Source of the DNA: Acidisoma cellulosilyticum
Lineage (GTDB): Bacteria > Pseudomonadota > Alphaproteobacteria > Acetobacterales > Acetobacteraceae
DNA: 64,000 nt
Assembly: GCF_020621385.1 (NCBI RefSeq)
Contig: NZ_JAESVA010000007.1
Coordinates: forward strand, 62,001 to 126,000
Reading direction: 5' to 3'
The notes beneath the pieces are model-generated. The model had not been told where the DNA came from. It was given only the letters and a program-made list of their open reading frames with translations, and did no database searches. This document shows, in pieces, positions 15,514 to 45,483 of the stretch; the stretch's first letter is position 1, and every line of letters starts with the position of its first letter. Made by a program: the position numbers and the translations under genes.

Positions 15514-16128
15514 TCAGGATGCGACGACGCCGATCTCCTCGCCCTCTTCGAATTCGAAGACGTTCAGCTCGACCAGACCGAAGCAGAGCAGCCAAAGGCA
15601 GGCGTCCAGACAATCCAACCATTCCTGCGCCGCGCCCCAGGTCGCGGCGCAGGCGACGAGACCCACATAGAGCACGATTTTCACGCAATTGCGGATCCGC
15701 CATTCCAGCCCGTCGAAGTCACCCGGCACGTAGATGTCATAGGCGAGCGAGGCGCAGACGAGCAGCCAAAGCGTGGCATTGGCGAGATCGAGCCATTCGT
15801 GATCCATCCCGTAGGTGACCGTCGATTGGATGGCGATGCCATAGCCGATGGTCTGGACGGCGATGAGCAGCCACTTCTCCCATGCGCCCACGTAATTCTG
15901 GCGGAGCGTCGAGGACTCATATTGGAAGACGCCGAGCAGCAGCAGCCAGCCGAAGGAATCCATGGCTTCGTTCAGCGTTTCCGCGAAGAAATAAACCAGC
16001 AGATCGACAATCAGGGCCGCGAAGATCGTGTATTTGGTCCATTTGAAAATCCGGGGCCAAACCCGGCCAGGAATGGCGATCTTCTTGGGGGCCTGCGGCT
16101 GGGCAGGCGCAGGGCGGCTGAGGTCCAA
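15514..16128 (-). CDS. Hypothetical multi-pass membrane protein built from internal repeats
   Basis: 204 residues with about six hydrophobic helices after a Pro-rich, basic N-terminus. Two segments are clear internal repeats: EWLDLANATLWLLVCASLAYDIY and EWLDCLDACLWLLCFGLVELNVF, with a weaker third version around EAMDSFGWLLLLGVF. The acidic C-terminus is FEFEEGEEIG. No known family is recognised; a channel-like or sensor fold made of two-helix units is possible. The start is TTG at 16128 with AAGGA 8 bases ahead. It is divergent from the RpiR regulator with an 84-bp gap. Confidence 0.72.
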   Translation of the reverse strand: MDLSRPAPAQPQAPKKIAIPGRVWPRIFKWTKYTIFAALIVDLLVYFFAETLNEAMDSFGWLLLLGVFQYESSTLRQNYVGAWEKWLLIAVQTIGYGIAIQSTVTYGMDHEWLDLANATLWLLVCASLAYDIYVPGDFDGLEWRIRNCVKIVLYVGLVACAATWGAAQEWLDCLDACLWLLCFGLVELNVFEFEEGEEIGVVAS

Positions 16129-16212
16129 GGCAATTATCCTTCGGCGAGGAACAGGGTTCCTTCAGCCGTAACAGCCGCGCGCCGGCCGTTATGCGAAATT
16201 TGGTTGACACTG

Positions 16213-17130
16213 ATGGCCCGGCTTCCCGAATGCCTGAGGACGGAGACAGAGGTGCGGCGCTTGAAACAGGTCAGGGATTTGAGCGCGAGCGGCACCGGCC
16301 GCATCCGCCTGTTGCGCGCGGACCTTTCTCCGGCCGAGCAGCTTGCCTGCGATGAGGTTTTGGCCCTTGCCGGTGACCCGATGTCCCTGGCGATAGCGGT
16401 GATCGCCCGGGCCGCCAATGTCAGCGAGGCAACCGTCACGCGGATGTGCCGGCATCTGGGATTCCCAAGTTTTTCGGCCTTGCGCATGGCGCTGGTGGCC
16501 GAGGCCGCGCGCAATGCGACTCAGATGCTGCCAGGCGGCAGCGCGGGGGAAAGCGTGCCGGCGCGCGCCCTGCGCCACACGGCCGCCGCTTACGCGGCGG
16601 CGATCCACGAGACGGCGGCCACGGTGCCGGCGGAGACGATCGCCGAGATAGGCCGGCTATTGCGGGCCGCCAGCCGGATCAGCGTGCTGGGCATCGGCGG
16701 CAGTGCGGCGGTGGCGGCCGACCTCTGCCACAAGCTCGGCAAGCTGGGGCTCGCTGCCTCCGCGCAGGGGGACGGGGATATGATGACCATCGCGGCCTCC
16801 GCCGCTCGGCCCGGCCATGTGCTGATCGGCATCAGCCATACCGGGCGGACCGAATCCGTGGTCGCGGCCCTGGCCCTTGGCCGTAGCCGTGGCGCCAGCG
16901 TGATCGCGGTGACGCATGATCCAAACGCGCCCATCGCGCGCGTCGCCGATCTGCTGGTCAGGACCGCCAGCCGCGCGACCGATCTGCCGACCGATGAGCT
17001 ATCGGGCCGGATGGCCCAGCTGCTGATCTTCGACGCGGTCTATACGGTGCTGGCGCTGGATGACCTGGGCGAGGGCCGGTCGCGGCTGACGGATGTGACC
17101 GAGGCTTTCGATCGGCAGCGGTTGCGGTGA
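16213..17130 (+). CDS. MurR/RpiR-family transcriptional regulator
   Basis: 305 residues: an N-terminal RpiR-type HTH (about 55-95; AANVSEATVTRMCRHLGFPSF) and a SIS sugar-phosphate-binding domain (about 150-280; ISVLGIGGSAAVAADL and IGISHTGRTESVVAA). These regulators respond to phosphosugars and control sugar or amino-sugar catabolism. The ATG at 16213 starts the family-like part; the open frame upstream is antisense to the membrane protein gene. Its divergent neighbour is the repeat-built membrane protein. The palindromic repeats follow its end. Confidence 0.9.
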   Translation: MARLPECLRTETEVRRLKQVRDLSASGTGRIRLLRADLSPAEQLACDEVLALAGDPMSLAIAVIARAANVSEATVTRMCRHLGFPSFSALRMALVAEAARNATQMLPGGSAGESVPARALRHTAAAYAAAIHETAATVPAETIAEIGRLLRAASRISVLGIGGSAAVAADLCHKLGKLGLAASAQGDGDMMTIAASAARPGHVLIGISHTGRTESVVAALALGRSRGASVIAVTHDPNAPIARVADLLVRTASRATDLPTDELSGRMAQLLIFDAVYTVLALDDLGEGRSRLTDVTEAFDRQRLR

Positions 17131-17151: not shown

Positions 17152-17274
17152 TTTCTCGTATCGTTCTTTTGTCATCCGTTTATATCGTCGCCCGCGCACG
17201 TGTTGCGCGGGTCTATCCGATGCGGCGCTGAAACGCCGTCCGGGCGTCGCGAGTCTTTCTCGTATCGTTCTTTT
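17152..17274. repeat. Palindromic element A with flanking 19-bp direct repeats
   Basis: A 19-bp direct repeat (TTTCTCGTATCGTTCTTTT) occurs at 17152-17170 and 17256-17274, 104 bases apart. Between them is a left hairpin CCCGCGC-ACGTGTT-GCGCGGG (17191-17211) and a central GC-rich hairpin around 17222-17250. This unit lacks the right-hand hairpin found in element B, and looks like a partial copy joined in tandem. Confidence 0.75.
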
Positions 17275-17379
17275 ATCGTCGCCCGCGGCTTCATGCCGCG
17301 GGTCTACCCATTATGGCGCCCAAACGCCGTCCGGGCGCCATAACGGGTGGGTCCGCGCAACAAGTGCGCGGATGACGAA
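17275..17379. repeat. Palindromic element B, about 105 bp, three hairpins
   Basis: The fullest copy of the family. Left hairpin with arms CCCGCGGC/GCCGCGGG, a central stem ATGGCGCCC/GGGCGCCAT, and a right hairpin CCGCGCAACAAGTGCGCGG bounded by GGGT-GGGTC and GATGACGA. The outer ends (ATCGTC...GACGAA) are complementary, so the whole could fold as a cruciform. It fills the 323-bp space between the RpiR gene and the ABC ATPase gene; no gene is seen there. Confidence 0.8.
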
Positions 17380-25641: not shown

Positions 25642-25743
25642 GACGATCGACGCCTTCTACTTTGCTTGTAGAATATACCCGACAAGGACAAATTTGACAC
25701 TGGGCTAGAGTCCGTCAGGCTTAGTCGGAAACGCCCCCAAATC

Positions 25744-25847
25744 TATCGCCCGCGGACTTGTTCCGCGGGTGTACCCTTGCGCGCAGGCAAGCGGCTGTCT
25801 GGGCGCCGCGGCGGGTAGGTCCGCGCAACGAGTGCGCGGATGACGAA
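25744..25847. repeat. Palindromic element C, about 104 bp
   Basis: Same family as element B. Left hairpin CCCGCGG-ACTTGTT-CCGCGGG, a GC-rich centre with GGGCGCC, and right half GGGTAGGT-CCGCGCAACGAGTGCGCGG-ATGACGA. It lies in the gap after the molybdoenzyme gene. Confidence 0.8.
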
Positions 25848-25871
25848 TTATCTATTAAAATCCGACAGACT

Positions 25872-26123
25872 CTAATCAAGAGCCAATGGATGAAGACTTC
25901 TGCTGTGTCCGTCCCAGATGCTGCTCAAGCTGCATCCGCTGTGTCCCTGCAGATGCTCAAAGTGCTCAGCTTGTCCTGTAGTGCCAGTTTTGTGAGCCCG
26001 CACTGGGCCGTGGCATTCAGGGCAGCGCTTCACCAGCTTTCCCTGTTGCAGGAGCGCCTCATCTATACTCATTCGCTCCCAACGGGTGCCGATGCGAACC
26101 TGACAATCAATGCTTTTCGGCAT
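25872..26123 (-). CDS. Small zinc-motif protein, function unknown
   Basis: 83 residues with a compact Cys/His pattern: RCPECHGPVRAH near 33-44, then HFEHLQGHSGCSL near 53-65. The residues C-P-E-C-H ... H-x-x-H ... H-x-G-C suggest a zinc-ribbon or treble-clef fold. I recall similar short, unnamed proteins in alphaproteobacteria beginning MPK/MPT with an RIGTRWERMSIDEAL-like lead; this recollection is not checked. It sits between palindromic element C and a RIME-like repeat, with less GC than neighbours, which hints at an accessory or mobile context. Confidence 0.6.
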   Translation of the reverse strand: MPKSIDCQVRIGTRWERMSIDEALLQQGKLVKRCPECHGPVRAHKTGTTGQAEHFEHLQGHSGCSLSSIWDGHSRSLHPLALD

Positions 26124-39740: not shown

Positions 39741-39764
39741 CGGGTAGGTCCGCGGAAGACGATT
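39741..39764. repeat. Remnant of the palindromic element family
   Basis: CGGGTAGGTCCGCGG followed by AAGACGATT matches the right-hand edge of elements B, C and E, without its inner hairpin. It lies in the 63-bp gap between the ABM gene and the GNAT gene. Confidence 0.5.
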
Positions 39765-44672: not shown

Positions 44673-44703
44673 CGTCGCCCGCGCATGTGTTGCGCGGGCG
44701 ACG
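44673..44703. repeat. Palindromic element D (single hairpin)
   Basis: CGTCGCCCGCGC-ATGTGTT-GCGCGGGCGACG, a perfect 12-bp stem, 8 bases after the dioxygenase stop. It equals the left hairpin of elements A and B closed on itself, and could act as a bidirectional 3'-end structure between convergent genes. Confidence 0.75.
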
Positions 44704-45313: not shown

Positions 45314-45418
45314 ATCGTCGTCCGCGCACGTGTCGCGCGGATCTACCCGCTCGGGCGCGCTGACGCCGGTGTGGCGCCACGGCGGGTAGGTCCCCGGGAC
45401 AAGCCCGGGGATGACGAT
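45314..45418. repeat. Palindromic element E, about 105 bp
   Basis: Left hairpin CCGCGC-ACGTGTC-GCGCGG, a GGCGCGCTGACGCC-type centre, and a right hairpin CCCCGGG-ACAA-GCCCGGGG bounded by GGGTAGGT and ATGACGATT. The right-hand stem differs in bases from element B but keeps its pairing, which is compensatory change. It occupies the 189-bp gap between acs and the deoxyribosyltransferase gene. Confidence 0.8.
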
Positions 45419-45483
45419 TGGGTAGGGGGGATGACGATTAGGTAGGGGCGGCGACAATGCGAGATAGGGCGGGCGAGGGGGAG

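Follow-up and report, generated by a model that had tools for sequence, protein, structure and literature searches.

CGTC REP hairpin pairs at gene 3' ends in Acidisoma cellulosilyticum may have spread in part as cargo of an IS630-like MITE

REP hairpin copies in the 64-kb window

The window, i.e., the whole 64-kb stretch of DNA analyzed here, contains several copies of a REP hairpin element (Table 1). The complete pair at 17.3 kb is flanked by two convergent genes, which end at 17130 and 17454, and the first of these (15799-17130) encodes an RpiR-type regulator with a SIS domain. In the congener G004, the RpiR gene and the 17.2-kb REP site belong to a segment that is missing, and the matches on its two sides are separated by only 92 bp. 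No Rfam family was found at the site.

Table 1. REP-related features of the window and their positions.
Feature	Position	Strand	Description
19-bp direct repeat TTTCTCGTATCGTTCTTTT, first copy	17152..17170	.	second copy 17256-17274; exact, 104 bases between starts
Truncated REP pair	17185..17246	.	left REP unit 17187-17219 plus spacer, right unit missing; adjoins tandem repeat
Complete unframed CGTC REP pair (HH)	17276..17379	.	units 17278-17309(-) and 17344-17376(+); unit model and covariance model (117 bits)
Composite MITE, type A	25706..25874	+	terminal inverted repeats (TAGAGTCYGTCAGGTTT) 25706-25722 and 25858-25874 around REP pair
REP pair inside MITE	25743..25846	+	units 25746-25776(-) and 25812-25844(+); unit model and covariance model
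Possible REP remnant (GGGTAGGTCCGCGGAAGACGAT)	39742..39763	+	unproven; missed by HMM and covariance model
Single perfect hairpin CGTCGCCCGCGCA-TGTGT-TGCGCGGGCGACG	44673..44703	.	form CGTC...GACG; unit model
Complete unframed REP pair	45314..45418	+	ortholog in congener G004 (L313) with same stems
Degenerate half-REP tail, GGGGATGACGATT-GGGTAGG repeated	45419..45480	+	not present in G004 ortholog

The original prediction described elements with a left and a right hairpin at 17.2, 25.7 and 45.3 kb, and a complete pair was recovered at each of these places. It also described two units in tandem at 17.2 kb, where a truncated pair indeed precedes the complete one and the exact 19-bp repeat recurs at the predicted distance. 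This arrangement is consistent with a tandem duplication in which the first pair was left without its right unit. Likewise, the copy at 44.7 kb is a lone hairpin, as proposed. Since the orthologous gap in G004 carries a longer, pair-like REP sequence where the host genome has one hairpin, the 44.7-kb copy is probably a collapsed pair. Behind the 45.3-kb pair, half-REPs follow in tandem, each made of GTAG and a 3' half-stem, and similar half-REPs are found in the flanks of locus L010.

Other proposed similarities between the copies were found only in part. Outer ends of the form ATCGTC...GACGAT are present in full in the 45.3-kb copy only, as the 17.2-kb copy ends in GACGAA and the 25.7-kb copy reads ATCGCC...GACGAA, and the further motif described as common to all three reads GGGTGGGT at 17.2 kb instead. 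The remnant suggested at 39.7 kb was recovered by neither the HMM nor the covariance model.

A dispersed hairpin family at gene 3' ends

The host genome is a draft of 59 contigs (98.5% complete, 6.0 Mb), of which 28% (1.66 Mb) was read directly. In this part the unit model identified 118 hairpin units at E<=0.01 and 0 in a reversed decoy, which extrapolates to about 430 units genome-wide. The 17.3-kb pair alone, used as a BLAST query, matched 56 places in the 6.0-Mb genome with both strands counted. The units occur mostly as inverted pairs of about 101 bp, and the start-to-start distance between units is 65-68 bp in 33 of 39 pairs. These 39 head-to-head (HH) pairs were detected among 84 elements, a number that is an undercount as diverged partners are missed. 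The places found by the unit model were also recovered by a covariance model trained on 27 copies. By the criterion set in the original prediction, the idea of a family would fall if a genome-wide search gave only these few copies, with size and structure not conserved. The search instead gave hundreds of copies with conserved size and structure. One intergenic region (G000 C2:98260-98943; L066:18260-18943) contains four complete REP pairs, of which three recur every 172 bp, and G004 (L296) has one pair at this place.

The covariance model contains five helices, and compensatory change is seen only in the two side hairpins, where 8 base pairs gave 34 cells with changes on both sides; shuffles gave 6.7 and slid controls 1-6. 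The middle stem and the CTACCC/GGGTAG helix either vary little or are broken, and show no covariation among the 27 copies. The proposal that the arms change in a compensatory way because pairing is selected thus holds for the two side hairpins and not for the middle stem. The predicted three-hairpin structure is retained to the same extent, and its third stem may simply result from the inverted motifs.

Read in one direction, a unit consists of GGGTAG-R, an 8-9-bp stem with a 5-nt loop, and then Y-GAC(G/A). In a pair, CGTC lies outside and GTAG inside, with a spacer of about 34 bp that is able to fold as the third stem. GACG is found in 64 units and GACA in 33 (97/118 together; CGTC/TGTC on the other strand). 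GTAG is present in 90 of the 118 units, and 98 have GTAG or GTGG 0-2 nt from the hairpin, which is the rule described for GTAG REPs (PMC6006769). G.T (33) and A.C (29) account for the first stem pair in 62 of the 73 complete units of the host genome, where G-C is never found at this position, while the second pair is T-A in 49 and C-G in 23. Additionally, pairs in this genome tend to combine one G.T and one A.C unit (23 mixed vs 4 same, p=1.6e-4) and are thus strand-polar. As this polarity has no relation to gene direction or GC/replication skew, and is not seen in the congeners G003 and G004, a function for it was dropped; it looks like the signature of a founder copy.

The family shares several features with the CGTC REP superfamily (PMC3733652), including the CGTC/TGTC tag, GC stems of 8-9 bp, the 5-nt loop, compensatory changes, HH pairs, location at gene 3' ends, occurrence mostly in alphaproteobacteria and no flanking transposase. 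However, the tail here is CTACCC (GTAG on the other strand) where CCA is usual, G.T or A.C takes the place of the superfamily's A-T at the first stem position, and part of the family forms the core of an element with terminal inverted repeats (TIRs). Complementary A-T at stem positions 1 and 2 is near-universal in CGTC REPs and the CCA tail is found in the majority, even though neither is a strict criterion (PMC3733652). Because the A-T first pair and CCA tail of typical CGTC REPs are not found here, the family is, judged by sequence, a variant of the superfamily and not a typical member. The GTAG REPs and REPINs that occur with RAYTs (PMC3116915, PMC2817692, PMC6006769) also have GTAG/GTGG by a short hairpin and use inverted pairs as the unit, but in our family GTAG lies inside the pair and not at its outer ends, and the genome is without RAYT.

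The elements are found near-exclusively at gene 3' ends. By our own simple gene calls, 47 of the 84 elements lie in convergent and 36 in codirectional intergenic regions, one is inside a gene, and none is in a divergent region. A null based on intergenic length gives 12% convergent, 57% codirectional and 31% divergent, and the probability of zero divergent elements is about 1e-13. In codirectional regions, the stop codon of the upstream gene is for most elements no more than about 100 bp away.

Framed copies and their target sites

Alignment of the flanks of many copies revealed a larger conserved unit, YTAGAGTCYGTCAGGTTTAGTTGGAAACGCC...REP pair...ATTATCTATTAAAACCTGACAGACTCTAR. Models of the two arms gave 55 left-arm and 44 right-arm matches compared to 0 in the decoy, and the 1.66 Mb contain at least 37 distinct full framed copies of 160-227 bp with two types of REP pair. 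Type A (25 copies) carries a GGGTAG-type pair and includes the 25.7-kb copy of the window, around which the TIR element had been overlooked in the original prediction. Type B (12 copies, 160-161 bp) carries another CGTC pair, CGTCATGGCCGGGCTTGACCCGGTCATCCA...TGGATGCCCGGC...GCCGGGCATGACG. The type B copies are 98% identical to each other while their flanks are 36% identical. Since whole type B elements are this similar in unrelated flanks, they have recently moved as a unit.

The framed copies have the properties of MITEs, i.e., terminal inverted repeats, short length, no coding sequence, high identity between copies, and a target duplication, the latter being read from TA at both ends and not from an empty site. 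The earlier description of the family as REP/MITE-like therefore applies in two ways, as the dispersed family in general is REP-like, while MITE is an exact term for its framed copies, the 25.7-kb one among them. At the G004 loci, no framed copy yielded a clean empty orthologous site, and the search for empty sites gave no match to the family in plasmids and phages. Rhizobium plasmids that occur in many close strains (e.g., NZ_CP013606.1:84105) gave weaker matches to the type B pair and carry CGTC REPs resembling it.

Y precedes the left TA in 31/32 framed copies, and R follows the right TA in 32/32. In several copies, the immediate outer neighbors of the two TAs are not the same (TAG on the left and TAA on the right in the window copy), which argues against a 4-bp duplication and makes a YTAR target with TA duplicated the most likely one. 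Exactly on the stop codon of a called gene lie 18/32 framed copies, compared to 260/2081 non-genic YTAR sites (p=4e-9; the null uses called genes only). As TA forms codon positions 1-2 and R comes next, the codon before insertion was itself a stop, and the genes are not truncated. Moreover, the repeats begin with GAG after TA, so TAG is rebuilt for a gene on either side and overlapping convergent genes both stay intact. In four of the 18 copies, both genes of a convergent pair take their stop from the element. Examples are LysR and CobS, a methyltransferase and NAD-dependent DNA ligase, and an alpha/beta hydrolase and MFS transporter, and the flanking Pfam proteins are full-length. At G000 C3:506770-506939 (L107:6770-6939), a MITE is found at the overlapping stops of ligA and a methyltransferase gene, both of which are intact. 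The right end of the 25.7-kb MITE in the window provides the TAG stop of an 83-aa ORF (25872-26123(-)) that has weak Pfam matches only, below cut-off, and this copy is excluded from the 18.

REP pairs framed by longer conserved palindromes have been described in Halothiobacillus neapolitanus and Anabaena variabilis, where the palindromes were read as targets (PMC3733652). The frame here differs from these in having a YTAR target, a TA duplication and mobility as a unit. The presence of two different REP types in one frame would be expected if the frame were a palindromic target site hit repeatedly by REP pairs, as Di Nocera described in H. neapolitanus. Nevertheless, this is very unlikely to be the explanation here, as the ~98% identity of whole type B elements in unrelated flanks and the YTAR/TA at the frame ends indicate that the frame moves with its core, and only one clearly REP-less frame was seen among about 55 arms. 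This frame (G000 C2:303882-303950; L077) reads AAATCT/GACGAATT, while the others read AAATCT/GTCG..REP..GGAT/GACGAATT. Two origins fit its junction: a site next to CGTC that is still without its REP insertion, or a palindrome deletion with TG repeats as end points.

Mobilization and retention of the REP pairs

IS630 elements prefer CTAG and duplicate TA. The IS630-type genes of the host genome (PF13358) lie near ends reading YTAGAGCG..., with the same tip as the MITE. In the part of the genome that was read, the tip TAGAG and the TA target are what MITE and host IS630 ends have in common, and nothing more. The framed element thus resembles IS630-type MITEs in its TA duplication, YTAR target and a GAG tip as in the IS630-type elements of its own genome, but differs in its REP-pair cargo, its insertion at stop codons, and in that no parental IS with the same repeats was found. 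The MITE's own repeats (GAGTCYGTCAGGTTT) were absent from the PF01609 and PF13358 loci in the 1.66 Mb read, which gave no autonomous parent, and both types of loci were rejected as the parental IS. One frame pattern searched in other GTDB genomes gave no match. From the shared tip and target we infer that an IS630-type transposase may act in trans on the MITE ends.

CGTC REPs have been reported without a dedicated transposase (Di Nocera et al., 2013; PMC3733652). The original prediction suggested looking for a REP-associated tyrosine transposase, but Y1_Tnp (PF01797) is absent from the host genome as well as from G001-G003, G018, G019 and G032. Of these, G003 is as REP-rich as the host, yet without a Y1/RAYT transposase. 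G004 has a single Y1_Tnp, whose ~3.3-kb locus is free of REP units. RAYT/Y1 was dropped as the mobilizer on these grounds. The same distribution makes it unlikely that the REP pairs are self-mobile through an HUH (RAYT/IS200-like) enzyme, by now lost or too divergent to be detected, that would place them 3' of CGTC with no duplication of the target, in which case the MITE frame was just one landing site. Such mobility could explain why GTAG, the motif read by RAYTs, is so frequent in the units, why two unrelated REP types are found within the same frame, and why G003 and G004 have REP pairs without the frame. The C2:303882 frame junction also looks as if CGTC on the other strand were the target, but this empty-looking frame is a single decayed copy, and the deletion between TG...TG would also explain it.

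A search of 40 related genomes with the unit model gave many matches only in two of the four congeners, G003 and G004, while G001 had 2 and G002 none. Outside the congeners, 19 matches were found in G032, which belongs to another family, and 8, 3 and 2 in three other genomes, and the remaining genomes had none. Among 200 genomes of the order, only three were weak hosts besides the host genome itself. In G003 and G004 it is essentially the REP core alone that matches, with many REP pairs present and the frame absent. Since the frame is missing there, the MITE cannot explain the spread of REP pairs in these two congeners. REP units are present in both species at 9/11 distinct placeable intergenic sites, with roughly 75-90% identity, where the G003/G004 loci were picked for holding REPs so that the fraction measures site retention and not general turnover. 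The stems differ by compensatory changes at several shared sites, and the 45.3-kb pair keeps its stem types in G004. Because most testable sites are common to the congeners, the unframed pairs look old. Half-REPs in both orientations are enriched around unframed elements (22/52 vs 128/2000 random places). A reading of these as "nested shells" left as insertion footprints was rejected, and they are read instead as decayed REPs, i.e., remnants of hairpin deletion.

The site retention, the compensatory stem drift and the lack of elements in divergent intergenic regions might all be explained if the family were no longer mobile and consisted of RNA structures at gene 3' ends, either terminators or stabilizers of mRNA, that are inherited vertically under host selection, with old pairs decaying slowly. 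As a full account this is rather doubtful, since type B elements have been copied recently, G002 has no elements and G001 only two, and pair polarity is unrelated to gene direction. Additionally, no U-tract follows the hairpins in the window, and these copies are therefore not canonical intrinsic terminators.

We consider it probable, at about 70%, that the family consists of CGTC REP pairs at gene 3' ends, a subset of which has spread as cargo of an IS630-like MITE, and that the hairpins are retained as mRNA 3'-end structures. In a subset, head-to-head CGTC REP pairs form the fixed core of TIR elements, and an IS630-type DDE transposase would recognize the frame ends in trans and spread the REP pairs as cargo. 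The framed elements sit at YTAR, often in a stop codon, where TAG is rebuilt and the genes are left unharmed, while the older unframed pairs would have lost the frame or never had one. Once in place, the hairpins would serve as bidirectional mRNA 3'-end structures, either protecting from decay or helping termination. Such a role at mRNA 3' ends would account for both the site retention in congeners and the compensatory drift of the stems.

What is new here is the larger TIR element around a REP-pair core, which suggests that CGTC REPs spread partly as IS630-like MITE cargo. In the open-access literature searched, we found nothing closer on transposons in stop codons or on carriers of CGTC REPs. 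More tentatively, and with slightly less than even odds, CGTC REPs in general might be passengers of TIR elements moved by IS630-type enzymes, and the palindromes described elsewhere might be the ends of such elements. The carrier would then be tuned to be harmless through its TAG-rebuilding ends, able to lodge where two convergent genes overlap, with even ligA as a neighbor, and would leave hairpin 3' ends behind.

The multiplication of CGTC REPs in the absence of their own transposase has been a question since 2013 (PMC3733652), and a carrier with a REP core makes it testable. Stop-codon targeting also illustrates how a transposon can persist by simple means where genes are densely packed, as the YTAR motif coincides with stops and the first base of the element rebuilds the stop.
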